Positions 3,824 through 48,100 of a stretch of DNA of 64,000 nucleotides are shown piece after piece. The stretch is taken from assembly GCA_019136655.1 (NCBI GenBank), contig JAGVTU010000013.1, positions 1-64,000 on the forward strand, read 5' to 3'. The position numbers were made by a program, and so were the translations under genes. The notes below the pieces were generated by a model. That model saw only the letters and a program-made list of their open reading frames with translations. It was not told the origin of the DNA and searched no databases. Position 1 is the first letter of the stretch. Each line of letters begins with the position of its first letter. Source of the stretch: Bacteroidota bacterium. GTDB taxonomy: Bacteria > Bacteroidota > Bacteroidia > AKYH767-A > OLB10.

Positions 3824-5653
3824 TCAGCAAAAATTTTTGTGCCAGTAAGCCAGTGTGCATAATCGCCAGATGAGAAGAGCATGTTTATTGTCGCCATGTT
3901 TATACTCATCCATCAGTGATTTTATTTTTTGGTAATTCAAAAAATCAAGCTGTTTGAAATCGGCATCTGTAAGATGAGCCAGTGCACCTCGAAGCCACTT
4001 CACCTCTCCCGGTGTAACAAATCCTTTTTTGTCTTTTCGCTCAACAATGGATTGCGGCATCACATCTTTAAGAGCCTGACGCATCACCCACTTGGTGTAA
4101 ATACCATTTGCTTTGTCGTCATTGCGAAGCTGAAAAGCAAATTCCACCAGGCGATGATCTAAAAACGGCACACGCGACTCAATTGAAAAAGCCATGCTGT
4201 TACGGTCTTCATATTGCAGCAGTGTGGGCAGACTGGTGTCAAACATCAGATGATATAAAAAATTATCGGTACGGTTGCCAGGCACCTTGTCAAGACTGAA
4301 AGGAATGGAACCATCCGTGCTTAAAAATGGAAAATAATGTTTGTACTCAAGTGAGTAAAGTTGTTGTTCGCTGCGCAGCAAACTCAAAAAACTTTTTCCG
4401 AAATGTGCAATGGTTTGTGTGGCTGAAAGCTGAAGGTTATGCGCCATCTTACCTGTAAGGCTGCAAGCTTTTCCCCATTGAAACGAAGCCAACAAATCGG
4501 CAACCATGCGGTAAGCAGTATGGTTGTATCCGGCAAGATATTCATCAGCACCCTGACCGTCAAGCACAACTTTAATTTTATGCTGAGCTATGAGTTTCAT
4601 CAGAAAATACTGCGATATAAACGAAGAGCCCGTTGCAGGTACATCAGCATGATAAAGTGCATGATGAAAATGTTCTCTGATGTCGTCATCTGTTGGTGAA
4701 AAATAATGCGGCTGCAGTGATGGAAACTTATCGCATACAGCTTTCACAAAAGGACGTTCGTCCACATCGCCTTTTCCCTCATAATAAATGCTGAAAGAAT
4801 CATACGGCAATCCCGGCTGCTGATGCTGCACCATACTCACAATGGCACTGCTGTCGAGGCCACCGCTGAGGCAACTTCCTACTGCAACATCACTGCGCAT
4901 GTGCAGCTTCACCGACTCATCAAACAACTTAAAAAACTGAGCGGCTTTTTCTTCGGCAGTAAGTGAAAGATATTTTCCGGTGTGAATGTCCCAGTAACGC
5001 GAAATTTTTACTGTGCCGTCACGTCTGCTGAAAACAAGATTGTGCGCAGCAGGTAATGCCTTCAGTTTGCTGAAATAAGTTTCGTCATGGTAGCTTGTCC
5101 ACCCCATTTGCAGCCCACGGCTCACCTGTGTGGTATTGATGTTGTTTGAAAACAGCGGACATGGTTTTAATGCTTTATACTCCGAGCCGAAATAAAATGC
5201 AGGTGACTGATGAATGTAATAAAATGGTTTGATGCCAAAACGGTCGCGCGAGCAAAAAAGTTCCTCCTTTTGCTGATCCCAGATGGCAAAGGCCCACATT
5301 CCCATCAATCTGTTTACACAATCTTTTCCCCACTTCAGGTAGGCATGTAAAATTACTTCTGTATCACTCTTTGTTTTAAACTGATGACCTGCCTGTTGCA
5401 ATTCAGCTTTAAGTTCTAAGTAATTATAAATTTCACCATTGAAAATGATGGTGAGATGCTGCAGATGCATGGGCTGATCGGCATCGTGGCTAAGGTCAAT
5501 AATGCTTAAACGGTTATGACCTAAATAAACATCATCTCTAATGAATGTACGGCTTGCATCAGGCCCTCGATGGGCAATTTTTCCAAGCATAGCCGATAAT
5601 ATTTTATCACCTTCAGCAATTCTGGAATCAATAAATCCGGCAATGCCACACAT
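3824..5653 (-). CDS. asnB: Asparagine synthetase, glutamine-hydrolysing
   Basis: The enzyme makes asparagine from aspartate, ATP and glutamine. The N-terminus MCGIAGF places the catalytic Cys2 of the class II glutamine amidotransferase domain right after the initiator Met, which fixes the start. The synthetase half carries the ATP-pyrophosphatase loop SGGLDSSA and further down VPFLDHRLVEFA. Length, 609 residues, is usual for the family. A TATTTTTG -7 box lies at 5690-5697. A second AsnB-type enzyme (55952-57820) sits in the polysaccharide cluster, so this copy is the more likely housekeeping enzyme; that division of labour is inference. Confidence 0.92.
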   Translation of the reverse strand: MCGIAGFIDSRIAEGDKILSAMLGKIAHRGPDASRTFIRDDVYLGHNRLSIIDLSHDADQPMHLQHLTIIFNGEIYNYLELKAELQQAGHQFKTKSDTEVILHAYLKWGKDCVNRLMGMWAFAIWDQQKEELFCSRDRFGIKPFYYIHQSPAFYFGSEYKALKPCPLFSNNINTTQVSRGLQMGWTSYHDETYFSKLKALPAAHNLVFSRRDGTVKISRYWDIHTGKYLSLTAEEKAAQFFKLFDESVKLHMRSDVAVGSCLSGGLDSSAIVSMVQHQQPGLPYDSFSIYYEGKGDVDERPFVKAVCDKFPSLQPHYFSPTDDDIREHFHHALYHADVPATGSSFISQYFLMKLIAQHKIKVVLDGQGADEYLAGYNHTAYRMVADLLASFQWGKACSLTGKMAHNLQLSATQTIAHFGKSFLSLLRSEQQLYSLEYKHYFPFLSTDGSIPFSLDKVPGNRTDNFLYHLMFDTSLPTLLQYEDRNSMAFSIESRVPFLDHRLVEFAFQLRNDDKANGIYTKWVMRQALKDVMPQSIVERKDKKGFVTPGEVKWLRGALAHLTDADFKQLDFLNYQKIKSLMDEYKHGDNKHALLIWRLCTLAYWHKNFC

Positions 5654-6566: not shown

Positions 6567-6574
6567 TATATTTG
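6567..6574 (+). promoter_or_regulatory. Bacteroidota -7 box for fabG (TATATTTG)
   Basis: TATATTTG matches TAnnTTTG and overlaps the alternative TTG start at 6572. This argues for the ATG at 6620 as the fabG start. Confidence 0.5.
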
Positions 6575-6579
6575 AGCCG

Positions 6580-6587
6580 CAAATGTA
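6580..6587 (-). promoter_or_regulatory. Bacteroidota -7 box for the outer-membrane protein gene (TACATTTG)
   Basis: The minus strand reads TACATTTG, 28 bases before the ATG at 6551. It lies only 5 bases beyond the opposing fabG -7 box, so the two promoters should compete. Confidence 0.5.
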
Positions 6588-6619
6588 GAACTATTATTCA
6601 ATTGTCAAAATTTAAGGAT

Positions 6620-7366
6620 ATGAAACTACTCGAAAACAAGGTAATACTGATTACAGGCGCCTCGCGTGGCATTGGTCGTGGCATTGCATTGCAATTGGCA
6701 GCGCATGGTGCACACGTTGCATTCACCTTTCTTTCCTCTCCCGAAAAAGGACTTCAGCTTGAAAATGAACTTAAAGCAAATGGAGTTAAAGCCAAAGGAT
6801 ATCAGAGTGATGCATCCGATTTTAATGCTGCCGAGCAACTCATAAATAATGTGCTTACAGATTTTGGTCAGATAGATGTCTTGGTAAATAATGCAGGAAT
6901 TACCCGCGATAATCTGCTGATGCGAATGACTGAAGAACAGTTTGACGAAGTGATTCGTACCAATTTGAAATCCTGTTTCAATACTACCAAACATATTCAG
7001 AAATCTATGCTGAAACAACGTTCGGGTTCCATCATCAACATTACTTCCGTAGTGGGCGAAAAAGGAAATGCAGGTCAGGCCAACTATGCTGCCAGCAAAG
7101 CAGGAATGATTGGTTTTACCAAATCCATAGCTCTTGAGTTAGGTTCACGCAACATACGTTGCAATGCCATAGCTCCCGGATTTATTGAAACTGAAATGAC
7201 TGCCGCACTCGACCCGGCCACCGTAAAAGGCTGGACAGATGCCATACCCATGAAACGCGGAGGAACGGTAGATGACATTGCCAATGCCGTATTGTTTTTT
7301 GCCTCCGACCTGAGCGCCTATGTTACCGGACAGGTGCTGCATGTGAATGGAGGCATGTACACCTGA
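6620..7366 (+). CDS. fabG: 3-oxoacyl-ACP reductase, short-chain dehydrogenase
   Basis: This classical SDR reduces beta-ketoacyl-ACP with NADPH. The 248-residue product has the nucleotide-binding GASRGIGRG loop near the start, the NNAGITRDNL motif, a catalytic Ser in NITSVVG and the YAASKAG catalytic Tyr/Lys. It ends with VTGQVLHVNGGM, typical of FabG. The ATG at 6620 is chosen because the in-frame TTG at 6572 overlaps the -7 box. A methyltransferase gene follows 7 bases downstream and the hybrid NRPS-PKS lies about 0.8 kb further on. It could serve fatty acid synthesis or the assembly line; the sequence alone does not decide. Confidence 0.88.
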   Translation: MKLLENKVILITGASRGIGRGIALQLAAHGAHVAFTFLSSPEKGLQLENELKANGVKAKGYQSDASDFNAAEQLINNVLTDFGQIDVLVNNAGITRDNLLMRMTEEQFDEVIRTNLKSCFNTTKHIQKSMLKQRSGSIINITSVVGEKGNAGQANYAASKAGMIGFTKSIALELGSRNIRCNAIAPGFIETEMTAALDPATVKGWTDAIPMKRGGTVDDIANAVLFFASDLSAYVTGQVLHVNGGMYT

Positions 7367-7373
7367 TGGAGTG

Positions 7374-8018
7374 ATGAAATTTAATCCATCACTATATTTT
7401 GATTTTCTCACCCCATTTTACGACAGCCTTTTCAAACTGCTGCTGCCACGTAAAAAAATTCGCCTTACCACTCTTGAGTTGCTCGAAAAAACGAACCCCG
7501 ATAAACTGGTTGAATTAGGTTCGGGCACGGGAGATTTGATTTTGGAGATGGCACAAAAGTTTCCGAAATCAAGCATCACAGCCATTGACATTGACACCAA
7601 AGCCAATGAAATTCTGAAACAAAAACTTCGAAAAAAATCCATTTCAAATGTAAGTGTGCAACAGGCATGGTCAGATGACTTGCCGTTTGAACCAGGTAGC
7701 GTAGATACATTATTTGCAAGTGTGCTTTTTTGCAACCTTCCACTCGACCGAAAACACAGTACACTTGAAGAAGCAAAACGTGTGCTGAATGAACCGGGAA
7801 TGTTGCTGATTGCAGAATGGGGACCACCGCAAACTATGATTTCCAAAACCGGATTTTTGGTATTGCAGGCCTTTGGCCGCTCCAATATCACTGATCTCAA
7901 GAAAGGAATGTTGCAGATTTACCTTCAGGAACATGGATTTTCTGCCATTGCTTCGCAACAGATCAACACCCTTTTCGGCACGCTGTACTTCTATCGCGCT
8001 GTAAAGCTCAAAAATTAA
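7374..8018 (+). CDS. Class I SAM-dependent methyltransferase
   Basis: The 214-residue product has methyltransferase motif I (LVELGSGTGDLI), the acidic ribose-binding ITAIDID, and the post-motif VDTLFASVLFCNLP. This fits the UbiE/type 11 small-molecule class. The ATG at 7374 is preceded by GGAG at 7368-7371 and avoids overlap with fabG; a start at 7347 is possible but lacks this. It is probably cotranscribed with fabG. The substrate is unknown; a role in tailoring the product of the downstream synthase is possible but unproven. Confidence 0.78.
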   Translation: MKFNPSLYFDFLTPFYDSLFKLLLPRKKIRLTTLELLEKTNPDKLVELGSGTGDLILEMAQKFPKSSITAIDIDTKANEILKQKLRKKSISNVSVQQAWSDDLPFEPGSVDTLFASVLFCNLPLDRKHSTLEEAKRVLNEPGMLLIAEWGPPQTMISKTGFLVLQAFGRSNITDLKKGMLQIYLQEHGFSAIASQQINTLFGTLYFYRAVKLKN

Positions 8019-8155: not shown

Positions 8156-11100
8156 ATGAAATCGCATAATTATCAATTCCCTAAAGCAACATTTGATCAG
8201 GCTTTGCTGTTGCCTTTGCTGTTTGAGCGGCAGGTGGCAAAAACTCCTGACCTTACTGCCGTATATTTTCATAACGACAGCCTCACCTATTCGCAGTTGA
8301 ACGATAAGGCAAATGCTGTTGCCGGTCACCTCATTTCAAAAGGAGTTAAACCCGGAAGCCTGGTGGGATTGTGCATTGAACGCAGTTGTGATTTAATCAT
8401 TGGTGTGCTTGGTATTTTAAAGGCAGGTGCCGGTTATGTACCGTTAGACCCTGAATATCCGCAGGAGCGACTTCAGTATATGATGGATACTGCGCAAATG
8501 CCGTTACTGTTGACCAACAATAATCTTTTCGAAAAACTTCCTTCAGGTAAAACAGAAAAACTTCTGATAGAAAATATTCCTCAGAAAAACAGTTCGCCAT
8601 CCATAAATCATTCTTCAGATGACATTGCCTATGTATTGTTTACCAGCGGAAGTACAGGACTGCCCAAGGGCGTGGCCATGCCTCACAAACCTTTGGTGAA
8701 TCTGATAACATGGCAACTGAAAAATACAACTGTTCTCGAAGGAGGCAAAACATTACAGTTTGCTCCCATCAGTTTTGATGTATCGTTTCAGGAAATATTT
8801 TCGACACTGAGTTGTGGCGGAACGCTGGTGATGATTGAAGATGATCTCAGACTTAATGCAGTCAACCTGTTGAATTTTGTATCGAAAGAAAAAATCAACA
8901 GACTGTTTCTCCCTTTCATAGCATTGCAACATCTGTGCGAAGTTGCCGAAAATTTTACGGGTGATTTAAGTTCGCTGAAAGAAGTAATCACTGCCGGAGA
9001 GCAATTGCAGAGCACTGCATTTATCAAAAACTTTTTCAGAAAAAATAAGCAATGCACACTCTGGAACCACTACGGCCCTACCGAAGGTCATGTGGTGACA
9101 GCTTATCAGTTGCCCGCCAATACTGACGAATGGGCAGCATTGCCTTCCATTGGCAAACCGATTGACAATGCTGAAATTTACATCCTCGATGAAAATGGAA
9201 ATGCCTTAGATGCTGAATCTGAAGGCGAACTTTATATTGGCGGAATCAGCGTAGCAAAAGGTTATCTGAACCGTGATGATTTAACTTCAGAGCGTTTTCT
9301 GCCAAATCCTTTTAAAGACTCACAGGGAAAATATTTTTATAAAACCGGTGACCTTGCGAAGTATCAGCGTGACGGAAATATTGAATATTTAGGACGCATT
9401 GATGGTCAGGTGAAAATTCGCGGTTACAGAATTGAACTCGGTGAAATTGAACTGACACTCGACAAACACGACACGGTGAAGCAAGCTGTGGTGGTGGCAC
9501 GTGAAGATGAACCCGGAGACAAAAGACTTGTTGCATATTGCCTTGCCGAAGAAGGTAAAAATATCAGCACCGGTGAACTTCGAAAATTCTTGTCGGATAA
9601 ACTGCCGGAGTATATGATGCCGTCAGCATTTGTGCAGGTTGAAAATTTTCCACGAACACCATCAGGAAAAATTGATCGCAGAAACTTACCTGCACCTTCA
9701 GGCAAGCGCCCCGACTTAGGCAATGTGTTTGTTGCACCTGAAAGTGATTTGCAGAAAATGTTTGCCACCAAATGGGAACAGCTGCTGAAGCTGGAAGGCG
9801 TAGGAATCCATGATAATTTCTTCGAACTGGGAGGCAACTCCCTGCTTGCTCTGAAATTTATTGCTGAATTAAGGCAGGAACATCAGCTTGATTTGCCTGT
9901 GGTAAAAATGTATCAGCATCCTGATATTTTTTCGCTGACAAAATTTTTAAGCAACGACAGTTCATCAAAATCATTTTATCAGTCGGCACAGGAGCGTTAT
10001 GCTACAGGCGTAAAAGGACGAATTGAAAATGTAGAAGACGGCATTGCAGTAATTGGTATGAGTGGAAGATTTCCGGGAGCTAAGAATGTAAATGAGCTTT
10101 GGAAAAATCTGCTCGATGGAAAAGAAACGGTTTCGTTTTTCAGAAAAGAAGAACTGGATGCCGGCATCAGTGCAGAAGATAAAAACGATGCTTCTTATGT
10201 TGCAGTGCGAGGTGTGATTGAAGATGCCGACAAATTTGATGCTCCGTTTTTTAATGTCAATCCGCGACTTGCTGAAGTAACCGATCCACAACAAAGAATT
10301 TTTCTTGAAATAGCATGGGAAGCTTTTGAACATGCAGGTTATGTCCCTGGAAATTATGACGGGCTGATTGGAATTTTTGCAGGAATGGGAAACAATACGT
10401 ACTTCCCGAATAATGTTTTTCATAACAAAGAAGCCATCAACCGTGTAGGCACATTTCAAACGATGACTGCCAACGAAAAAGATTATATAGCCACACGTGT
10501 TGCTTATGAGTTTAACACCAAAGGTCCGGGACTGAGTATTCATACTGCCTGTTCTACTTCACTCACTGCAGTTGCCATTGCTTACGAAAGTTTGCTCAAT
10601 AAAGAATGTGACATGGCACTTGCAGGAGGAATTGCCATTACAGTGCCCGTGAACAGCGGACATATTTACAACGAGGGTGGTATGTTCAGCAAAGACGGAC
10701 ACACACGTGCTTTTGATGCTGATGCCACAGGAACTGTTTTCAGTGATGGTGCAGGAGCAGTTATTCTGAAACGATATAAAGATGCACTGCGTGACGGTGA
10801 CGAGATTTACGCAGTGATACGAGGTGCTGCACTTAATAATGACGGCAGCGACAAGGCAAGTTTTACCGCTCCCAGTGTTGAAGGCCAGGCACAGGTGGTT
10901 GCTATGGCGCAGGCAAAAGCAGGTGTTGAGCCTGATACTATTTCATATATCGAAACACATGGAACTGCCACACCCCTTGGTGACCCGATAGAAATTGAAG
11001 CACTCACTCAGGCATTCCGCAGCAAAACGGACAAGAAACAATTTTGTGCTGTCGGCTCCATCAAAACAAATATTGGTCACCTCACTCCTGCTGCCGGTGT

Positions 11101-14100
11101 AACAGGGCTGATAAAAACATGTCTTGCTTTAAAACATAAAATATTACCTGCATCACTCAACTACAGAAAAGCCAATCCTGCAATTGATTTTGAAAATTCT
11201 CCGTTCTATGTGAATGCAGTGAAGCAAGAATGGAAAAGTGCTGATGGCAAACCGTTGCGCGCAGGAGTAAGCTCATTTGGTGTGGGCGGAACCAATGCAC
11301 ATGTGGTGTTGGAAGAAGCACCAAAAACCATTGATTCAGGCATTGCACGACAGAGGCATTTGTTCCTGCTTTCAGGAAAAACAAAAACTGCACTGGATGC
11401 ATCTGCCTCACAACTCAAAACATTTTTTGAAAACAACTCAGAAATAAATCTTGCAGATGCTGCATATACTTTGCAAACAGGAAGAAAATATTTTAATCAC
11501 CGCAGAATAATTGTTGGAGGAAGTATTGCAGATATTAATTCAGCTTTAGAACAATCGAATCCTAAGAAAACTGCTTCACGCGAACTGACATCGGGCAATC
11601 CTGAAATCATTTTCATGTTTCCGGGACAAGGCTCGCAGTATGTGAACATGGGAAAAAATCTTTACGAAGATGAGATTGTATTTAAAGATGCTGTTGACAC
11701 CTGCTGCAAAATTTTGCAACCTCATCTCGGCCTTGACCTAAGAACGATTCTTTATCCTAAAGATTCAGAAAAAGAAAAAGCAGAAAAGCTGCTTCGCGAA
11801 ACGGTTTACACTCAACCGTCACTGTTCACCATTGGTTATGCTTTGGCAAAACTGTGGATGAGCTGGGGAATTCAGCCCAAAGGATTTATTGGACATAGCA
11901 TTGGTGAGTTTGCAGGAGCACATCTGGCAGGAGTATTTTCGCTGGAAGATGCACTGATGTTGGTGGCCAACAGAGGAAAGATGATGCAGGAGCTCCCGCA
12001 TGGCAGTATGCTCAGTGTAAGACTGCCTGCTGCCGAAGTTGAAAAGGAAATAGATGCATCATGTTCCATCGCTGCCATTAACGGTCCTTCCCTTTGCGTA
12101 GTTGCAGGCCCTTCAGATAAGATTGAAAAACTTCAGAAAGAATTTGAAAAAAGAGAAGTTACAGCTAAGCTGTTGGTAACATCACATGCCTTCCACTCTC
12201 CTATGATGGAGCCCATGCTGAAACCATTTCTCGAAAAAGTGAAATCAGTAAAACTGAATAAACCTACCATACCTTTTGTTTCAACAGCTACATCGAAATG
12301 GATAACGGATGAGGAAGCTACGAATCCGGAATACTGGGTAAATCATGTGCGTGCAACAGTTCGCTTTGCCGAAGGTATTCAGACATTGTGGAATGAAAAA
12401 CCACAGCGTGTGTTGTTGGAATGTGGGCCGAGAAATACAGCTTCCATACTTGCAAAACAGCAAGCAAAAGAACCTGCAAAACAAATAGCCATTTCATCAC
12501 TGAATGATACAGCAGAAAATTTTGCGGAATGGGAACAAATACTTTTTGCTCTCGGACAACTTTGGATGGCAGGTGCAGAACCCGACTGGAAGAATTTTTA
12601 TGCGCTTGAAAAAAGAAAAAAAGTTGCGCTTCCCAGCTATCCTTTCGAAAAGAAAAGATACTGGCTTGAGCCATTAACACCTAAAAATAATTTTACAACA
12701 ATAAACAATGAAGTCATGCAACAACCGCTGTTCCCAATGATGGCAGAGCAGACTTCGACAGTACAAACATCAGCAACAACAAACAACATGAATAGAAAAG
12801 ACCTTATCACAGCAGAATTAAAATCCATTCTCGAAGAATCATCAGGCATGGAATTAGGCAACGACACCCAGGCTACATTTATGGAATTGGGATTGGATTC
12901 ACTATTTCTCACACAGGCTGCACTTACCATCAGCAAAAAATATGGAGTGAAAATTACATTCAGACAACTGAACGAAGATTTCTCTTCACTCAATGCATTA
13001 GCTTCACATCTCGACAGCAACCTTCCTGCTGATGCCATGCCTGCTCCGGCTCCTGCAGCATCACAACCTGCAATGCCACAGCCCACTGTGCAAATGCAAC
13101 AAGGAATGAATCCCATGCAAATGATGATGATGCAACAAATGCAGATGATGCAGATGATGATGCAGCAAATGTCGCAACCGGTGCAGCAGGTAGCACCTTC
13201 TGTTCAGGCACATATTGAAAAATCGGTAGAGATAAAATCACATACCAAAAAAGAAGATATCAGCGAAAACGAAAAAGCTGAACTGGCAAAACCATTTGGT
13301 GCTATTGCCCGAATAGAAAAAGCTGCTTCATCAGATATCAGCGAAAAACAAAATGAATGGCTGAAAAAATTTATTTCAGACTACAATAAGAAAACAGCCA
13401 AAAGCAAACAATATTGTCAGGAATATCGCAGCGTACTTGCCGACCCTCGTGTGGTAACAGGATTCAAACCTGCACTGAAAGAAATTATTTATCAGGTAGT
13501 GGTTGAAAAATCAAAAGGAGTAAACTTCTGGGATTTGGATGGAAATAAATATGTAGATGTGCTCAATGGTTTTGGGTCAAACTTTTTAGGATGGGGAAGC
13601 GATGTGCTGATGAATGTTTGGAAAAAACAATTGGAAACAGGAATAGAACTTGGACCACAGACTCCTCTTGCAGGAGAATGTGCTAAGCTGATGTGCGAAA
13701 TTACCGGCTACGACCGCGCAGGATTTTGCAACACAGGTTCTGAAGCAGTACTTGGTGCCATGCGTATTGCACGAACTGTTACGGGAAAAAATCTGATTGT
13801 ATGTTTCAATGGTTCCTATCATGGTATCAATGACGAAGTAATTGTTCGCGGTACTAAAAAACTGAAATCGTTTCCTGCTGCAGCAGGTATCATGCCCGAA
13901 TCGGTAGAAAACATGCTGGTGCTCGATTACGGAACAGAAGAAAGTTTACAAATCATCCGTGAACGTATTGACGAACTTGCAGCTGTGATGATTGAACCGA
14001 TACAATCGCGCAGAGCAGATTTTCATCCGAAAGAATTTATTCATGAGGTGCGAAAAATCACCAAAGAAAATAATGTGCTGATGATATTTGACGAAGTCAT

Positions 14101-14842
14101 CACAGGATTCCGTTTGCGATTAGGTGGTGCACAGGAATATTACGAAGTAGATGCCGACCTGAGTACGTATGGCAAAGTGATTGGTGGCAATATGCCTGTG
14201 GGGGCTATTGCAGGACGAAAACAATACATGGATGCTCTTGATGGTGGCTTCTGGCAATATGGTGATGCATCAATTCCCGAAGTTGGCGTTACTTATTTTG
14301 CAGGAACCTTTGTTCGTCATCCGCTGGTGATGGCTGCAATGAAAGAAGTTTTGTTGTATCTGAAGAAAGAAGGCAAACCTCTTTACGAAAAACTGAATTC
14401 AAAAACGCAGCGACTGGTGGACGAAGTAAATGCACACAGCAAAAAGTTAGGTTCACCGTTTAAGCTTGTAACATTTGGTTCACTCTTTAAAGGTAAATGG
14501 GAAACAGAACCTCATTACACTGAATTGCTGTTTGCGATGATGCGCTACAAAGGTGTTCACATCATGGATGGATTCCCCTGCTTCCTGACACTTGCATTTA
14601 CTGATGCTGATGTGGACTTTGTGATAGCGAAGTTTAAAGAAAGTCTGGATGAGCTTTGCGCCATTGGATTTATTCCTACAGAGAAAAAATTGGATACAGC
14701 AACTTCAAACGGACATAGCTCCAACGGAAATGGACAACATCCGCCTGTGCCGGGAGCAAAACTTGGTAAGGATGCCAATGGCAATCCTGCCTGGTTTGTT
14801 GCAGACCCCGAAAGACCAGGAAAGTATTTGATGGTGAAATAA
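8156..14842 (+). CDS. Hybrid NRPS-PKS with aminotransferase domain (A-PCP-KS-AT-ACP-AMT)
   Basis: This 2228-residue assembly-line enzyme should load an amino acid, extend it by one malonyl unit and transaminate the beta-keto group. Domains: adenylation about 20-510 (LFTSGSTGLPKG near 162, IRGYRIELGEIE near 420, PSGKIDRR near 503); carrier with Ser562 in GGNSLL; ketosynthase from 628 with Cys799, His935, His975; acyltransferase with Ser1248 in GHSIGE and a HAFH malonyl-type motif; carrier with Ser1582 in LGLDSL; class III aminotransferase about 1770-2165 with probable PLP Lys2007. A Met/Gln-rich linker lies near 1650-1685. There is no condensation domain at either end and no thioesterase. The closest known architecture is the iturin/mycosubtilin family. 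Product unknown. Confidence 0.92.
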   Translation: MKSHNYQFPKATFDQALLLPLLFERQVAKTPDLTAVYFHNDSLTYSQLNDKANAVAGHLISKGVKPGSLVGLCIERSCDLIIGVLGILKAGAGYVPLDPEYPQERLQYMMDTAQMPLLLTNNNLFEKLPSGKTEKLLIENIPQKNSSPSINHSSDDIAYVLFTSGSTGLPKGVAMPHKPLVNLITWQLKNTTVLEGGKTLQFAPISFDVSFQEIFSTLSCGGTLVMIEDDLRLNAVNLLNFVSKEKINRLFLPFIALQHLCEVAENFTGDLSSLKEVITAGEQLQSTAFIKNFFRKNKQCTLWNHYGPTEGHVVTAYQLPANTDEWAALPSIGKPIDNAEIYILDENGNALDAESEGELYIGGISVAKGYLNRDDLTSERFLPNPFKDSQGKYFYKTGDLAKYQRDGNIEYLGRIDGQVKIRGYRIELGEIELTLDKHDTVKQAVVVAREDEPGDKRLVAYCLAEEGKNISTGELRKFLSDKLPEYMMPSAFVQVENFPRTPSGKIDRRNLPAPSGKRPDLGNVFVAPESDLQKMFATKWEQLLKLEGVGIHDNFFELGGNSLLALKFIAELRQEHQLDLPVVKMYQHPDIFSLTKFLSNDSSSKSFYQSAQERYATGVKGRIENVEDGIAVIGMSGRFPGAKNVNELWKNLLDGKETVSFFRKEELDAGISAEDKNDASYVAVRGVIEDADKFDAPFFNVNPRLAEVTDPQQRIFLEIAWEAFEHAGYVPGNYDGLIGIFAGMGNNTYFPNNVFHNKEAINRVGTFQTMTANEKDYIATRVAYEFNTKGPGLSIHTACSTSLTAVAIAYESLLNKECDMALAGGIAITVPVNSGHIYNEGGMFSKDGHTRAFDADATGTVFSDGAGAVILKRYKDALRDGDEIYAVIRGAALNNDGSDKASFTAPSVEGQAQVVAMAQAKAGVEPDTISYIETHGTATPLGDPIEIEALTQAFRSKTDKKQFCAVGSIKTNIGHLTPAAGVTGLIKTCLALKHKILPASLNYRKANPAIDFENSPFYVNAVKQEWKSADGKPLRAGVSSFGVGGTNAHVVLEEAPKTIDSGIARQRHLFLLSGKTKTALDASASQLKTFFENNSEINLADAAYTLQTGRKYFNHRRIIVGGSIADINSALEQSNPKKTASRELTSGNPEIIFMFPGQGSQYVNMGKNLYEDEIVFKDAVDTCCKILQPHLGLDLRTILYPKDSEKEKAEKLLRETVYTQPSLFTIGYALAKLWMSWGIQPKGFIGHSIGEFAGAHLAGVFSLEDALMLVANRGKMMQELPHGSMLSVRLPAAEVEKEIDASCSIAAINGPSLCVVAGPSDKIEKLQKEFEKREVTAKLLVTSHAFHSPMMEPMLKPFLEKVKSVKLNKPTIPFVSTATSKWITDEEATNPEYWVNHVRATVRFAEGIQTLWNEKPQRVLLECGPRNTASILAKQQAKEPAKQIAISSLNDTAENFAEWEQILFALGQLWMAGAEPDWKNFYALEKRKKVALPSYPFEKKRYWLEPLTPKNNFTTINNEVMQQPLFPMMAEQTSTVQTSATTNNMNRKDLITAELKSILEESSGMELGNDTQATFMELGLDSLFLTQAALTISKKYGVKITFRQLNEDFSSLNALASHLDSNLPADAMPAPAPAASQPAMPQPTVQMQQGMNPMQMMMMQQMQMMQMMMQQMSQPVQQVAPSVQAHIEKSVEIKSHTKKEDISENEKAELAKPFGAIARIEKAASSDISEKQNEWLKKFISDYNKKTAKSKQYCQEYRSVLADPRVVTGFKPALKEIIYQVVVEKSKGVNFWDLDGNKYVDVLNGFGSNFLGWGSDVLMNVWKKQLETGIELGPQTPLAGECAKLMCEITGYDRAGFCNTGSEAVLGAMRIARTVTGKNLIVCFNGSYHGINDEVIVRGTKKLKSFPAAAGIMPESVENMLVLDYGTEESLQIIRERIDELAAVMIEPIQSRRADFHPKEFIHEVRKITKENNVLMIFDEVITGFRLRLGGAQEYYEVDADLSTYGKVIGGNMPVGAIAGRKQYMDALDGGFWQYGDASIPEVGVTYFAGTFVRHPLVMAAMKEVLLYLKKEGKPLYEKLNSKTQRLVDEVNAHSKKLGSPFKLVTFGSLFKGKWETEPHYTELLFAMMRYKGVHIMDGFPCFLTLAFTDADVDFVIAKFKESLDELCAIGFIPTEKKLDTATSNGHSSNGNGQHPPVPGAKLGKDANGNPAWFVADPERPGKYLMVK
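13099..13191 (+). repeat. Met/Gln-rich low-complexity segment coding a linker
   Basis: About 30 codons are almost all ATG and CAA/CAG, built from short ATGATG and ATGCAA units. They lie between the second carrier domain and the aminotransferase domain. The DNA looks prone to slippage, yet the reading frame is intact. Confidence 0.75.
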
Positions 14843-15442: not shown

Positions 15443-18400
15443 TCAGGCATGAGCAGCAGCATGAGCCATCATCTGCTCAAATAATTTATTTCCTGCAGCA
15501 ACACTTTCCATCTTATAAAAAGTAATGCTCAGCTTGTTGTTTACTTCTTTCATGCGGCAGCGTGACGGATTATTTTTTACAAAGTTGATGATCTGCATAA
15601 ACAACTCACTCTTGTAAAGCCGCGAATCAGGATTGGAAACCAAATAACCTTTCAGCTGACTATTTTTTAAAATCAGTTTTTCAAAACCCATCGAGCGTGC
15701 TTTCCAACGCAGTTTAACTGTTTCCATCAGCTCTCTCACCTGTTGTGGCACCGGACCAAAACGATCGCGAAGCTGATTTTCGAAAGCTGTAAGTTTTTCT
15801 TCTGTTTCTATGTCATCCAGCTCTTTATACAGGTTCAGCCGCTCCACAATATTTTCTACGTAACTTGTAGGAATCAGTATTTCCAAATCTGTTTCTATCT
15901 GACAATCTGAAACGATAGGTTTCTTGTCATCATCAGGAAAGAGTCCTTTAAAATCTGTTTCGCGCAATTCTATCAGTGCTTCGTCAAGAATTTTCTGATA
16001 CATCTCCAATCCGATTTCAGAGATAAAACCACTTTGCTCGCCACCAAGCAAATTGCCTGCACCGCGAATATCCAGATCGCGCAACGCTACCTGAAATCCC
16101 ATTCCCAAATCAGAATATTCTTCAATGGCACGCAATCGTTGACGAGCTTCAGGTGTAAGCACAGTGAGTGGCGGAGCCAATAAATAACAGAATGCTTTTT
16201 TGTTGCTGCGCCCCACCCTTCCTCTCATCTGATGCAAATCACTCAGCCCAAAATTCTGTGCCTGATTGATGATGATGGTATTTGCATTGCTGATATCAAT
16301 ACCCGACTCAATGATGGTAGTTGCCACCAGCACATCACTGTCGCCTTCAATAAATGTCATCAGCACTTCTTCGAGCTGACTGCCATCCATCTGTCCATGC
16401 CCTACCACTACTCTCACATCAGGACAAAGTCTGCGAATCATATCAGCAATATCGTGAATGTCGGACACTCTGTTGTGCACAAAAAATACCTGCCCTCCTC
16501 TCGATACTTCATACATCACTGCATCACGAATCACTTTATCGTTGAAGGTATGCAACTCTGTTGTTACAGGATAACGGTTAGGTGGTGGTGTATTGATAAC
16601 AGAAAGATCTCTTGCTCCCATCAGCGAAAATTGCAGTGTGCGCGGTATGGGAGTTGCCGTAAGTGTGAGTGTGTCCACATTTACTTTCAGCGATTTTATT
16701 TTCTCTTTGCTGGCTACGCCAAATTTCTGTTCCTCATCAATAATGAGCAAACCCAGATTCTTGAATTTTATATCCTTACTCAACAAGCGGTGTGTGCCAA
16801 TAATGATGTCCACCTTTCCTTCTTCGAGGCGTTTGAGGGTTTCGGTTTGCTGTGCCGATGTTTTGAAACGGTTGATGTAATCTATTGTACACGGAAATTC
16901 TTTAAGCCTGTCGGTAAATGTGCGATAATGCTGCATGGCAAGAATAGTAGTCGGCACCAGCAATGCCACCTGCTTGTTATCGCTCACTGCTTTGAATGCG
17001 GCACGAATGGCAATTTCTGTTTTTCCAAAACCTACATCACCACAGATAAGCCTGTCCATGGGTGCAGATTTTTCCATATCTTTTTTTACATCGCGTGTTG
17101 CCTTCACCTGATCGGGAGTGTCCTCATAAATAAAAGAAGCTTCCAGTTCTGTTTGCAAATAATTGTCCTGCGAAAATGCAAATCCCTGCTGCGCTTTTCG
17201 CTTTGCATACAAGGCAATTAAATCACGTGCAATATCTTTTACTTTCTTCTTGGTTTTTTGTTTGAGTGTTGCCCATGCAGTACTTCCCAATTTGTTCAGT
17301 GCAGGTGCTGCACCATCTTTGCCTGAGTAGCGTGCTATGCGGTGCAAACTGTGAATGCTCACATGCAAAATATCATTATCCTTATACACCAAACGGATGG
17401 TTTCCTGCTGACGGCCTTCGATATTTAATTTCTCCAAACCACCAAAACGTCCAACACCATGGTCAATGTGTGTTACATAATCTCCTGGTTTGAGGCTATA
17501 CAATTCTTTGATGGAAAGTGCTTCGCTGCGACTGTAATTCTTTCGCAGTTTGAAGCGGTGATACCTGTCGAAAATCTGATGATCAGTGTAGAATGCAACT
17601 TTCAGATCTGTATCAATAAAACCTTTGTAGAGTGAAGTATAAACCGGATGAAACTGTATGTCGTCTTTGTTGATTTTTTGCTTCACACTCATATCTTCGA
17701 GTATGGCGTAGATACGTTCCACCTGCTTGGCCGACTCAGAGAAAATATATGTCAGAATTTTGTTGGCTTTGTTGGCTATCAGATTTTCCGAAAGAAGATT
17801 GAAATTTTTGTTGAACTGCGGCTGTGGTTTAATGTGAAAAGAAATTTCAACAGCATCCTCATAATTACTTTTTACACCAAACTCCACATTGGCATGTTTG
17901 CCGAAACTTTCGCTGATGAGTTTAAATGAAGGATAAACATTTTTGGCATCATCATAATCTTGTTTTTCTTCTGCCGGAATTTCAATTTTCGATAATACTT
18001 CAAAATTCTCCTGCAGATACTGAAGCTGATAACCTAAATCGCGTGTAACTATTAAAGTTTTTTCAGGCAGAAAACGGAAGAAAGATTCTGTGTTATTGTT
18101 TTTAAGCTCCGACTGAATGTTGGGTATGATGGTAACAAACTGAAGATTTTTGTCTGACAGCTGCGTAACAGGATCGAATGAGCGTATGGACTGAATATTG
18201 TTTCCGTCAAACTCAAGACGGTAAGGCAATTCAAAAGCGAAAGAATAAACATCCACAATACCACCCCGTATTGCATACTGCCCGGGTTCGAAAACAAAAT
18301 CAGTTCGCTGAAAATTATTTTCAGTAAGAAACTCATTGATAAAATCAATACTCAGCGACTCTCCTACTCTGGCTTCGATGGTGCTTTGTTCTAGTACATT

Positions 18401-18805
18401 TTTAGTGACTACATTTTCGGCAACAGCTTCAGCATAGGACACTACTAAAAAACTATCGCTGTGTTTGTTGATATAACTCAGCACTTCTGCTCTCATCTGT
18501 ATGGCTGAAGTATCGTGGCCATTCAGCTTAAAAGGTTTGCGGTATGATGCAGGAAAAAACAAAACTTTTCCTGTGCCTATAAGATTTTCGAGATCGTTGA
18601 AATAATATGCTGCTTCTTCGCGGTCAGGCAAAACCATCAGCAGCGGCTGATTCAGTTTGCTGAAGGTGGCTGCGGTAATGAATGATGCTGCCGAGCCATG
18701 CACATGCTCCAGATGAATGTGTTTTGTTTGTTGTATATCATTGGCAAGCCTGCATACAGAAGGGTGCTCCGCATATTGACTGATTAACTTCTGTAATTGT
18801 TCCAT
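15443..18805 (-). CDS. mfd: Transcription-repair coupling factor
   Basis: Mfd removes RNA polymerase stalled at DNA damage and recruits UvrA. The 1120-residue product has the UvrB-like N-terminal part, the RNA-polymerase interaction module (LKPGDYVTHIDHGVGRFGG) and the RecG-like translocase: Walker A GDVGFGKTE near 588, DEEQ box, TATPIPRTLQFSLMGARDLS, and the QMRGRVGRS motif VI. The C-terminal TRCF domain follows (PTSYVENIVERL). The ATG at 18805 is preferred over a GTG at 18820 because a TATTTTTG -7 box overlaps the GTG. Length is usual for the family. Nothing is missing. Confidence 0.95.
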   Translation of the reverse strand: MEQLQKLISQYAEHPSVCRLANDIQQTKHIHLEHVHGSAASFITAATFSKLNQPLLMVLPDREEAAYYFNDLENLIGTGKVLFFPASYRKPFKLNGHDTSAIQMRAEVLSYINKHSDSFLVVSYAEAVAENVVTKNVLEQSTIEARVGESLSIDFINEFLTENNFQRTDFVFEPGQYAIRGGIVDVYSFAFELPYRLEFDGNNIQSIRSFDPVTQLSDKNLQFVTIIPNIQSELKNNNTESFFRFLPEKTLIVTRDLGYQLQYLQENFEVLSKIEIPAEEKQDYDDAKNVYPSFKLISESFGKHANVEFGVKSNYEDAVEISFHIKPQPQFNKNFNLLSENLIANKANKILTYIFSESAKQVERIYAILEDMSVKQKINKDDIQFHPVYTSLYKGFIDTDLKVAFYTDHQIFDRYHRFKLRKNYSRSEALSIKELYSLKPGDYVTHIDHGVGRFGGLEKLNIEGRQQETIRLVYKDNDILHVSIHSLHRIARYSGKDGAAPALNKLGSTAWATLKQKTKKKVKDIARDLIALYAKRKAQQGFAFSQDNYLQTELEASFIYEDTPDQVKATRDVKKDMEKSAPMDRLICGDVGFGKTEIAIRAAFKAVSDNKQVALLVPTTILAMQHYRTFTDRLKEFPCTIDYINRFKTSAQQTETLKRLEEGKVDIIIGTHRLLSKDIKFKNLGLLIIDEEQKFGVASKEKIKSLKVNVDTLTLTATPIPRTLQFSLMGARDLSVINTPPPNRYPVTTELHTFNDKVIRDAVMYEVSRGGQVFFVHNRVSDIHDIADMIRRLCPDVRVVVGHGQMDGSQLEEVLMTFIEGDSDVLVATTIIESGIDISNANTIIINQAQNFGLSDLHQMRGRVGRSNKKAFCYLLAPPLTVLTPEARQRLRAIEEYSDLGMGFQVALRDLDIRGAGNLLGGEQSGFISEIGLEMYQKILDEALIELRETDFKGLFPDDDKKPIVSDCQIETDLEILIPTSYVENIVERLNLYKELDDIETEEKLTAFENQLRDRFGPVPQQVRELMETVKLRWKARSMGFEKLILKNSQLKGYLVSNPDSRLYKSELFMQIINFVKNNPSRCRMKEVNNKLSITFYKMESVAAGNKLFEQMMAHAAAHA

Positions 18806-18819
18806 CTGAAAAAAGAACA

Positions 18820-18827
18820 CAAAAATA
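18820..18827 (-). promoter_or_regulatory. Bacteroidota -7 box for mfd (TATTTTTG)
   Basis: The minus strand reads TATTTTTG, 15 bases before the ATG at 18805. It overlaps the rejected GTG start. Confidence 0.4.
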
Positions 18828-42160: not shown

Positions 42161-45100
42161 TTATCGCAACAGCGTAACAGTGCCGTTATAATCGTGGCGC
42201 TTGCCACTCTTGGTTGTTACAACGAGTGAATACACATAGGTTCCCTGAGGTGCTACTCCGCCACGTCCATCGCTGCCATCCCACGGTTTGCCCGGTGAAT
42301 CGGTTTGATACATCATTTGTCCCCAGCGGTTGAATATTCTCAGTTTAAATCCTGAATAATCCATATTGAATCCGGGGTCGAAGAATACTTCGTTGCGACC
42401 GTCACTGTTAGGAGTAAATGCATTGGGCACCCAGAAAGGATTAATTACAATGGTTTTCTCAGTTGAGTCAACACATCCTGAAATATTTTCTACAATCAGC
42501 TTCACCTGAAATTCGCCTACATCAGAGAAATAATGTGATACATTTTGCTCGAAGAGTGTGTCGCCAAGACCAAACACCCACTTCCAGTTTACGGCATAGT
42601 CAGACTCATCAGTAAACAATACCGGGCCACTGTAGATGTTGGTCATCATCGGATCGGCTTTGAACTTAGCAACAGGAAGCGGATAGAAGAATACATCCAC
42701 ATCCTTCATCAGTGAATCAGTACATCCAAACGGATTGGTAACAACCAGTTTGATCTGATAGGTACCGGGCACTGCAAACACGAGTGATGGGCTTAACATA
42801 TGTGAGAATACACTGTCGCCTACACTCCACTGGAAAGTAGCTCCCGGCATATATGTTGACTGATTGATGAAATGAATATTGGTGACTTCACATGACTTGC
42901 TGGTATCGTTTGTAAAGCTGACAACAGGATAAGAATGTGCAATGAATGCAAACGCAGGTGATGTGTTGGTACATCCGTTGGCATCCGTTACCTGCACTGT
43001 GTAGTTTCCGGTTTGACTTACTGTGAGCGTACTTGCAGCACTGTTGTCGGACCAGAGGTAAGATGTGTAAGGTAATGTTGTTGACAATACTGAAGTTGCA
43101 CCTTCGCATACTCCACTCACTCCGGTGATGACAGGTTGCGGCAACGGATTGACAGTAATGGTTGCCATTCCGCTCATCTGAGTACCGGGACAATTGTTGT
43201 CGCTGATGGCAGTGAGTGAATAAGTGGATGTGGCAGCAGGACTTAAATTCAACGTCAGCGGATTCTGAGATGTGGTTGCTGTTGTTGACTGGCCTGTTGC
43301 ATTATTCAGATAGGTGTAAGTAAATGGTGCTTCACCTGTGAACTGTAACTGTATTTGCGCAGTTTGGTTGAGACAAATAACAGGAGAACCTGAAATAACT
43401 GCCTGCGGCAAATCGTGAACAGTGATGGTAGTGTTTCCTGTAGCATTGGTCTTACATCCGTACAAACCTGTTACCAATCCTGAAAGACTATAAGTAGTAG
43501 TGCTTGTAGGAGTAACAGGAATTGTAACCGAAGGTGTGTTGGACACCACAGGGAAACTGGTAGTACCGTCAGAGTAAGTTACTGCATAAGGACCATTGGC
43601 AGTGAAGTTAAGCGTGATAGAGCCTGACGTGCCATTGCACAATGATGGTGTTGCAGTGGTGATAGCAACTGTAGGATTATCGAGCACAGTGATTGCCACA
43701 CTCTGATTGATGGTAGCAGGACAATTGGCATCATTAATAGTAGCCAGTGTATAATTAGCAGTGCTTTGAGGAGCTACATAGAACGAATAGCTGCTGCCTG
43801 CAGAATTAACCACACCTGCGCCTTGCATCTGGAAGGTAAACGGTGCAACACCTGTAAACTGAATATTTAACTGTGTGCTGTCGCCTTTGCAAAGTGTATC
43901 ACTTGCTGTTGTTATAACCGCTTGCGGAATATCATTTACCGTAATTGTTGCACTTCCTGAAGCAGGGCCTGCACATCCATTGCCGTCAATAGTAGCCGGC
44001 AAGGTATAAACCGTAGTGGATGCAGGTGAAACAGGAATAGTAACAGAAGCAGAATTGGTAGTAAATGGTCCGTTGTTTACACTACCTGCAAGGTAGCTGT
44101 AGCTATAAGGTGCTTCGCCAGTGAAGTTGATGGTAAGATTTGTTGAACTGCCTGCACATATTGCAGTGGTACCTGTTAAGGTTGCACCGGGAGTTGGAAC
44201 AACACGTACATACGCTGACTGATTAACTGCATTGTTGGTACAGTTGGCATCACTCAGTGTTATTCCTAAATCGTATGTCGAACTTACAGTTGGCGAAACA
44301 GGAATGGTTGCAGAATTTGTAGGAGATGATAATGCACCTGAAGGTGTACCATTGGTTAAGTATGTATAATCAAATGGTGGTGTTCCGGTAAACTGAATAT
44401 TAAGTGTTGTTGAACTTCCGAAGCAGATGGTATCATTGCCTGTGAGTGTTGCAGTAGGAATTTCATTAACAGTAACAGTGGCTGAACCTGCCATGGCAGT
44501 GCCTGTACAATAGTTGTCTGAAATTGCTATTGGCGTATAAGTTGTCTGCCCAACAGGAGGAGTAACTGAAACTACTAAAGGATTGCTGCTTGTAGTGCCG
44601 CTAACATTTGAAGTACCGTTGAAATAAGTATAGTTAAACGGTGCATTACCTGTAAATACCAGTGTAAAGTTGGCTGCAACACCATCGCACACTGTTGGAT
44701 TGCCACTCACTGCCATTGTTGGTAATGGTCTTACAACAATTTGTGCAGTTGCAGGATTAACTGGAGAACTGCATCCCATCAAACCTGTTACGTTTCCTAC
44801 GAGTGAATATGTTGTAGTTCCTGATGAAGGAGTAACCGGAATGGTAGTTGAATTGCCCGTACTTGTAACTCCACTGGTAATACTTCCATTGCTATACGAA
44901 GTGTTGAATGGACCAATACCTGTAAAATTAATGGTAATACTTCCACTCTGCCCTGCACACAGATTTGGTGTGGTAGTTGAGATAACAGCAGTAGGCAATG
45001 GCACCACGGTTACTTTTACCGTTTGATTTGTATTATTTGTACACAACTGATCATTTACCTGAACAAGTGTATAATTGGTAGTTGAAGCAGGCGATACAGG

Positions 45101-48100
45101 AATTATCTGCGGATTGGAAGTAGCAGTTTGCACTCCCTGTCCTGACAATTGATAGCTGAATGGTGCTGTTCCTGTAAACTGGATGCTGAGGCTTGTGGAA
45201 CCACCGCTGCAGATAGAATCGGAAGCAGTGCTGATAACAGCAGTAGGCAATGGTCTTACAGTTACACCACCCAAACCACTTACCGAACCTTTACAAACTC
45301 CGCTAAATACTGAGTCAAGCTGGAAGGTAGTTGTAGCTGTTGGGCTTACTATAAGCTGATAAGGATTGTTGGATGTAGTTACAGGGCCATAAGTATTTCC
45401 AAGTCCGTCTTTGTAATAGAATGTCCAGGGTGCAGCACCTGCATTGAAGTTAACCAGCAAGGTATCCTGATCACCGATACATATTGTTTTGTTTCCGCTG
45501 ATAGCAGCTTGTGGTAATGCATTTACAGTGACGGTAGCTGTTGCAGGATTTGCATTGTTGGAACACAATGCATCACTGATGGTTGTTCCAAGCGAATATG
45601 TTGTAGTGGCACTCGGAGCAACTGTTACCGTATATGGATTTGCTGATGTATTGAAATTGTTGGTACCTCCCGGTGTTGCAACAACACTTCCGCTGAAAGG
45701 ACCTGTACCTGTGAAATTAATGGTAAGTGTTGAAGTCTGACCTGCACAGATGGTGTTGGTACCTGTAAGAATAGCTGTTGGCAATGGATTAACCGTTACA
45801 CTTACTGTATCATTGATACCGGTGCGTGTACAATTTTTATCCGACACTGTAGTAACAATATAATTGGTACTTGCCAGAGGATGTACATAGAAGAAATAAG
45901 GATTTGAAGAGGCACTGGTGTTTACAGGTGCTCCTGCATTGGTAACCAAACCAAATGTATAAGGCGAGCCATTACCTGTGAAACTTACCTGCATTCGCAC
46001 ACTGTCGTTCAAACAGATTACAGGATTGGTGGCAGCTGTAATATTAGCATTGGGTATTACACGCACAATAACCGTAACCGAATTAGCAACACTGCCAGGA
46101 CAGGTTTTAGTTGAACTGGTAAAGTTTACGAATGAATAAGTAGTAGTAGTGGTCGGTGACACATTGAGTGTAGTAAATGCTGCATTGGTATTTACAGGAG
46201 TCAAAGTGTTGGTAGTGTTATCGCGAATGTTGCCTACATAAGGTGGTGTACCCGTGAAATCAACACGAATGGTTGTTGATGAACCCACACAAATGGTATC
46301 GTTTCCTGTTATTGACATGGTAGCCGTTGGAACAGGATTGACAACAATTTTTCTGCTACCTGACACTGTTCCCACACAGGCATCTTCCACGCTTAATAAA
46401 GTGTAAGTAGTGGTTGTTGCAGGATTGACGTTTACAACCAAAGGATTGGATGATGTAGTTCCTGAAATATTAGGACCTGTAGAACTGCTGATTACATAAT
46501 CCCATGGGCCTGTTCCTGTGAAACCAATGGTAAGTGTAGAACTTCCGCCCACACAGATGGTATCATTAGATGTTACATTTATTGTAGCAGTAGGCTTAGG
46601 AGCGATGGTTACATTGGCAGTACCTGAGACTACACCCGGACAACCGGAAGACACAGTAATGCTGCCAAGTGTATATCCGAAATTACAATTCACCGGTACG
46701 CGAACAATATAAGGTGAAGTATTGGCAACAGCATTGACAACTGTTGTTCCCACACAACCCGGACCCGGAACATTATAACTGAAAGTCCAAGGAGGAGTAC
46801 CGGTAAAAGTAAACTGGAGATTCACACTGTCGCCAAGGCAGGCACTTGCAGGCCCTGATACAGCAATAACTCCAGATGGTGCCGAAGCCACACTTACATT
46901 GATACTTGGAGTAGTACTTGTACAACCACTTGGTGACTGAGTAATCACTGCATTATAAGAACCTGCGGCACAAGCACTGATGCTTGAACTGTTTCCTCCG
47001 TTGCTCCAGGCATAACTGTAAGTAAAACATGGATCGTTAGGAGAAGGACTAGCTGTTAAAGTAACACACTGCCCAGGACATAAATTAGTTGGTCCTCCTG
47101 CGCTGATGTTGCCGGTAAATGTATTGTCAACATTTATGGTAAAATGATTGGAATTAGAAACGCATGGCAATGCATCACCAATGCTTACCCAATACTCGAT
47201 GTTTCCTGTACAGATGGTTGTAGAAAATGGATCGGTAAATGTTGTTGGTCCTGCCTGTGGAATAGTTGTGACTAAAACCGGAGGAGACCCGGGTGGGTAG
47301 GATCGGTAAAGATTATAATTTGCTGCCGCTGTTGGCGGATATGCTCCAGGAAACAGCGAATTCCAGTTGAGTTGAATACCGCAGTTATCTACACCACTTA
47401 AAAACATAGTGCGGATCGTACTTGATGGATTTGAGAAGAAGTCAACACCACAAGTTGATTTTGTTACAACATAAAAATAGATGGGTTGTGTAGCAGCGTT
47501 GGCACCAATTAAGTTTGTAAGTGTAGTACCAAGAATAGTATCTCCCTTTTGCTGAAAATTATTTCCCCATACACTGTCAACGAGCGTAAATGGCCCACCC
47601 TGACTGGTAGAAGCATAAATGTAATATGCATTGAAAACATTATGTGAGTCAATAGCCATAGGTGGATTCCAGTACAGTCCAACATCCCCTGCCGGATTAA
47701 GCACTGACGCTCCTCTTACATCCGGTTCAGGTAATGGAATTGGAGGCTCGACAGTAATGGCAATGGTAATGGTACTGATTGCAGGTGCAGGACAATAATC
47801 ATCCTGAGCTTTGATGATGAAGTAATAAGTATTCCTTGCGCGGATACACCCTGATGGTGCAAGAATATGATTACAGTTGGTGACCCACGTAAACTGAATA
47901 AAGTTGGCAATAGGTGAAACCGAAGGCAATAATTTATTGAGATAAGCACAGGGAGGATACTGGCAACCTGCATCAGAAGTTATTTGTGTACCAAACTGAT
48001 CACTGTAGCCTTCTATTTTAATATTTTGGAAACTTCCCGACCCAATGTTTTTCTGGAAATCGGTTGCATCAATCCTGAAGCGCACTGTATCTCCGGCAAA

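Follow-up and report, generated by a model that had tools for sequence, protein, structure and literature searches.

The 64,000-nucleotide window analyzed here (positions 1 to 64,000 of contig JAGVTU010000013.1, forward strand, of the Bacteroidota bacterium assembly GCA_019136655.1) encodes a large hybrid synthase with the domain order adenylation-peptidyl carrier-ketosynthase-acyltransferase-acyl carrier-aminotransferase (A-PCP-KS-AT-ACP-aminotransferase). The protein ends where a condensation (C) domain would be expected, which raises the question of where its chain goes next. A preliminary description made from the window alone had offered three answers, namely, that the line is split and its remainder lies elsewhere, that the product leaves by another route, or that the cluster is truncated. 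Comparison of sequences across genomes leads us to favor the first, with a probability of about 0.82: the synthase would make up the first half of a hybrid line shared between two proteins, and the second half would be a C-A-PCP-thioesterase protein encoded on another contig (C2) of the same draft genome.

We first established what the synthase contains. Its open reading frame (ORF) starts with ATG and runs through 2228 codons without an internal stop. Pfam matches above the curated cut-offs were obtained for AMP-binding, AMP-binding_C (residues 430 to 505), two PP-binding stretches, the ketosynthase, the acyltransferase, and the class III aminotransferase (limits in Table 1). S562, C799, S1248, S1582, and K2007 all fall in invariant columns of a 10-protein alignment, so that KS, AT, ACP, and aminotransferase are united in one protein with their active residues; both the domain order and the five residues named in the preliminary description were thus confirmed. 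Its claim that no C domain or thioesterase follows the aminotransferase also held, as the Pfam search found neither domain in the protein.

The missing functions were found elsewhere in the genome (2.96 Mb, 27 contigs, 99.96% complete). Its sole Condensation domain belongs to a 1326-amino-acid C-A-PCP-thioesterase protein on contig C2, and the only thioesterase above the Pfam cut-off is a domain of that same protein. This candidate partner begins with MSDRFIAVDFDPFAPAAPATVPTTEEQREIW, a head that leads directly into the C domain. The DFDPF-containing head motif is present in 34 of 36 partner proteins, the other two being one near-miss and one sequence that is cut short; the partner of G152 (L034:12442-16581) has two copies of a DFDPF-like motif at its N terminus. 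The preliminary description had reasoned that the line would be an ordinary split one if a nonribosomal peptide synthetase (NRPS) gene with a C domain at its start lay elsewhere, and the C2 gene is of that kind.

We then searched each of the two proteins against 199 genomes, including their own, with thresholds of E ≤ 1e-100 for the synthase and E ≤ 1e-150 for the partner. The synthase was found in 39 genomes and the partner in 30. In the family of the window (f1; 24 genomes, including its own), 17 genomes encoded both proteins, 7 encoded neither, and none encoded one alone (Fisher P = 2.9e-6, a value that ignores relatedness). In 9 of the 17 (G006, G007, G009, G012, G013, G016, G017, G019, and G022), the partner lies directly behind the synthase on the same contig and strand, in further support of a split line. 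Gene maps of 15 relatives, covering 20 loci, showed synthase, partner, and 4'-phosphopantetheinyl transferase (PPTase) genes in a row in G012, G007, G152, G119, and G161, the last three being outside f1. An extra frame stands between partner and PPTase in G191, no PPTase is in view in G009, and in G179 both halves are fused into one 3881-amino-acid frame that is followed by the PPTase. Two partner-like genes instead of one follow the synthase at G049:C66 and G093:C33. The distances among synthases and among partner C domains were correlated (r = 0.91 in 16 genomes and 0.96 in 10 genomes of f1), with none of 2000 permutations as high in a Mantel test run without an unrelated-gene control. Since such a correlation could arise from vertical descent alone, it indicates shared inheritance, not contact.

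The two genes are apart in 7 of the 17 f1 genomes, including the one analyzed here: they are on different contigs in G000, G001, G002, G003, G005, and G015, and on opposite strands of one contig, 32 kb from each other, in G008. G011 has both genes in fragments. The two genes were probably neighbors in an ancestor and later moved apart by rearrangement.

Against the pairing of the two proteins, co-inheritance is also expected from plain vertical descent, and the synthase and its candidate partner lie on different contigs of a draft assembly. Both genes are near contig ends, the synthase 8.2 kb from the start of C7 and the partner 9.1 kb from the end of C2, and are at least 17.3 kb apart if these ends meet. 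Such positions could mean that the separation is an assembly artefact and that the genes are neighbors in the real chromosome. Against this reading, G001 and G003 share the flanking genes at both loci. The distance in G003 is at least 72 kb for any joining of contig ends; on this value and that of G008, we rejected an artefact as highly improbable. The absence of a condensation or thioesterase gene beside the synthase could mean that the cluster is truncated or decaying and that the protein makes nothing, and the sister species G002 has a synthase (G002:C42:42447-49038) broken into two pieces, with a single in-frame stop. However, the frame is intact in the genome analyzed here and in G001 and G003 (97 and 89% identical, full length), the active-site residues are kept, all 120 homologues listed share the same protein end, and the missing half is present in the genome. 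This third answer of the preliminary description was therefore rejected on the conservation of frame and protein end, and we consider it very unlikely.

Its second answer, that the product leaves by another route, did not find support either. The synthase could act alone, with its chain leaving by spontaneous ring closure or through a free-standing hydrolase, and the C2 protein would then belong to an unrelated line. The amines of the predicted chain could cyclize, and a second, weak thioesterase-like match, at C18, falls short of the cut-off (E = 1.6e-5). Yet the exceptionless co-occurrence in the 24 genomes, the adjacency in 9 of 17, and the fused form in G179 argue against a synthase that acts alone, which we regard as improbable.

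We next addressed the question of how the two proteins might meet. The preliminary description had likened the end of the synthase to the linker that precedes a C domain in cis. When public proteins were searched with the aminotransferase and tail, 7209 of 7995 scored had E ≤ 1e-40; in all of the 120 best homologues listed, the tail motif is located in the last 45 residues, and none of the 120 contains the HHxxxDG motif of C domains. P0190, which is among them, is annotated with Condensation and has its additional sequence at the N terminus. We then examined 80 loci from named genomes, out of at least 568 confirmed relatives, for a C domain on the strand of the synthase. It was found in a separate downstream frame in 38 loci (within 260 bases in 35 of them) and fused to the aminotransferase in one frame in 33; 8 loci had none, and 1 had no usable aminotransferase match. 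By eye, the tail ends the synthase in 35 of the 38 split loci and in 6 of the 8 loci without a same-strand C domain, while the PAWF tail is present in none of the 33 fused junctions. In these loci, the tail thus marks proteins with a separate C gene, and the linker reading was rejected. Found with split lines, the tail looks like a docking end for the partner.

Among the eight loci without a same-strand C domain, L070 and L078 correspond to G005 and G008 of f1, the sequence ends within 500 bases in L087 and L142, and L090 and L115 are Nostoc loci that lack the tail. L082 (Maribacter zhoushanensis) and L085 (Spirosoma luteum) have the tail and no same-strand C-domain frame within about 10 kb, a search that did not cover the other strand or the rest of the genome, suggesting that the genes may have parted elsewhere too.

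The order of domains and the specificity codes allow a route to be proposed. Domain A1 would load proline onto the first carrier, and KS and AT would add a malonyl unit. Conversion of the 3-keto group to an amine by the aminotransferase would then leave the ACP charged with a 3-amino-3-(pyrrolidin-2-yl)propanoyl chain. Once the conserved tail had docked to the partner, at its DFDPF-containing head, the C domain of the partner would join the chain to the amino acid loaded by A2 (asparagine, to judge by the code). The chain would next pass to Cys1148 of the thioesterase and be released, perhaps by ring closure through attack of one of its own amines.

The substrates in this route are readings of the code. 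The A1 code of the synthase, DVQFIAHVVK, is shared by 51 of 120 rows (its own and 119 listed public proteins), and V236 and Q239 occur together in 114 of the 120. Both residues are described as frequent in proline A domains in PMC12283262, which suggests that A1 loads proline. Against this stand the six rows without V236/Q239 and other codes among class relatives, such as DVQIFSQVVK and DLTKMGHIGK. The acyltransferase carries the motif HAFH in 121 of 121 proteins, which we take to denote the malonyl-coenzyme A type. Domain A2 of the partner reads DLTKIGEVGK, which we assume to be an asparagine code. The same code is named in the Asp/Asn section of PMC12283262, where it is also given as compatible with another residue. 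The code thus suggests that A2 extends the chain with asparagine.

In contrast to the C and thioesterase domains, which stay alike, A2 codes vary widely among relatives. Identity of the partner to P0005 and G002 is 74 and 74% in the thioesterase and 64 and 66% in the C domain, versus only 38 and 37% in the A core, and the A cores of both are far more diverged from P0002 (residues 485 to 829) than are the flanking C and thioesterase domains. A diverged A core between well-conserved neighbors points to an exchange of the middle domain with retention of the ends, and the A domain of the partner thus appears to have been exchanged, as if by recombination. This does not hold in every pair, since the order is reversed with G012 (62% in the A core and 46% in the thioesterase).

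We then turned to the release domain. The partner thioesterase has the alpha/beta-hydrolase thioesterase fold and a cysteine nucleophile, Cys1148, and the sites usually occupied by the catalytic Asp and His are Asn1175 and Asn1302. This replacement is conserved in a branch of partner proteins: Asn stands at the Asp place in 34 of 36 readable rows and at the His place in 33 of 35, the His column being fixed by P0011 and P0012, which keep His in the same context. The alignment contains no invariant Asp in the later segment (position II, as in ObiF and SulM). The closest solved relative keeps Cys-Asp-His. AB3403 of Acinetobacter baumannii (4zxh), called uncharacterized in a passage of PMC6668435, differs from the partner in that Asp and His are retained at the aligned columns. 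ObiF1 and SulM are, like the partner thioesterase, alpha/beta-hydrolase release domains with a Cys nucleophile and, according to the passages on them in PMC6668435 and PMC11298585, they keep the catalytic His and an Asp on a later strand, whereas in the partner Asn occupies both of the usual places and no later Asp is invariant. A literature search, judged mostly from titles and the beginnings of abstracts, pointed to no thioesterase without the Asp-His dyad; PMC3672683 reports a Ser-to-Ala change.

Replacement of both Asp and His by Asn could mean that the domain is catalytically dead and that another enzyme releases the chain. However, Cys1148 is invariant across the 36 proteins compared, as are 37 further positions of the domain, and the thioesterase is better conserved than the neighboring A core, a pattern that decay would not give, so that we consider a dead domain rather unlikely. 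His1082, His1084, His1119, and Asp1303 are invariant as well. If active, such a domain would release the chain without the usual base, with ring closure favored over hydrolysis. As Asn replaces the water-activating Asp and His, release by one of the chain's own amines seems likelier than ordinary hydrolysis, and our guess, a weak one, is amine-driven ring closure. Two public proteins that combine Cys with Asp and His speak against this guess, as do seven f1 genomes with an Asp-His thioesterase (G005, G007, G009, G013, G017, G019, and G022), since they show that lines of this kind can also carry the ordinary dyad. All seven have a DILQLG-type (glycine-like) A2 code, which is absent from eight others with a complete code, and the nucleophile motif of the partner is GGPCGG in G007 and G022.

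A broader scenario is possible, although we hold it to be doubtful: a branch of NRPS thioesterases may have swapped Ser-Asp-His for Cys-Asn-Asn, with histidine-free release in which the amine installed by the aminotransferase closes the ring. Constant ends (a proline starter half and a Cys-Asn-Asn release domain) around an exchangeable middle A domain might then account for a family of small, cyclic dipeptides of the beta-amino type, the two halves of the producing line having drifted apart along the chromosome.

Known systems help to place these observations. The iturin, mycosubtilin, and microcystin (McyE) lines contain KS-AT-ACP-aminotransferase and aminate the beta carbon ahead of an NRPS module. 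The synthase of the window shares the KS-AT-ACP-aminotransferase order with these lines but differs in starting with an A-PCP loading module and in that the C domain belongs to a different protein, encoded on another contig. The same architecture and tail, mostly with the same type of A1 code, are seen in proteins of Pedobacter, Mucilaginibacter, Hymenobacter, and other Bacteroidota, and the A-PCP-KS-AT-ACP-aminotransferase architecture is widespread in this phylum. In 35 of the 41 fetched loci with the tail, a same-strand C-domain frame follows the synthase, whereas in the genus of the window it is far away. A split line by itself is ordinary; what sets this one apart is that its genes are parted in the genus and that the partner has a Cys-Asn-Asn release domain. 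Cluster mining relies mainly on neighborhood, so that a line with distant genes is easily mistaken for a broken one, and here co-occurrence allows the missing half to be named. A narrow literature search revealed no product for the architecture and nothing pertinent on the architecture or the A1 code.

Table 1. Features of the two loci; positions refer to the window unless preceded by L002 (partner locus on contig C2)
Feature	Position	Strand	Basis
A-PCP-KS-AT-ACP-aminotransferase protein, 2228 aa, proposed first half of the line	8156..14842	+	ORF list, Pfam, alignment
Adenylation domain A1, core aa 23-371 and C-terminal part to aa 505	8222..9670	+	Pfam; code DVQFIAHVVK
Peptidyl carrier domain, aa 538-597, Ser562	9767..9946	+	Pfam, alignment
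Ketosynthase, aa 629-1003, Cys799	10040..11164	+	Pfam, alignment
Acyltransferase, aa 1152-1438, Ser1248, HAFH motif	11609..12469	+	Pfam, alignment
Acyl carrier domain, about aa 1550-1620 (limits by eye), Ser1582	12803..13015	+	Second PP-binding stretch, alignment
Class III aminotransferase, aa 1780-2159, Lys2007	13493..14632	+	Pfam, alignment
C-terminal tail, aa 2196-2228, conserved and predicted to hand the chain to the partner	14741..14839	+	Homologue comparison
Candidate C-A-PCP-thioesterase partner, 1326 aa	L002:10207-14187	-	Genome domain search
Partner thioesterase, Cys-Asn-Asn replacing Ser-Asp-His	L002:10207-14187 (residues 1062-1326)	-	Alignment
PPTase gene, three bases behind the partner	L002:9520-10203		Domain search
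FabG-type 3-oxoacyl-ACP reductase, just upstream of the synthase, probably housekeeping	6572..7366	+	333.8 bits vs cut-off 297.75
S-adenosylmethionine-dependent methyltransferase, possible tailoring enzyme	7347..8018	+	Pfam; homologues beside synthase in relatives
Transcription-repair coupling factor, next large gene downstream	15443-18820	Opposite to synthase	Pfam

Upstream of the synthase, the methyltransferase gene overlaps the reductase gene and ends 137 bases before the synthase start. Homologues of both stand beside the synthase in G001 and G003 and in none of the 13 other mapped genomes. We rejected the reductase as a dedicated ketoreductase, since it is a FabG equivalog (97% identical in G003) and is missing beside the synthase in those 13 genomes. 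In G005 and G015, the neighbor of the synthase that had been considered as an exporter turned out to encode arginyl-tRNA synthetase.

Asparagine synthase-type genes occur near both loci, at 3824-5653 (minus strand) in the window and at L002:553-2466 (minus strand); the former scored 466.5 bits against a cut-off of 267.1 for asparagine synthase. These genes might conceivably be linked to an asparagine-loading A2. Farther along, the window contains a 2302-amino-acid frame at 42161-49069 on the minus strand.

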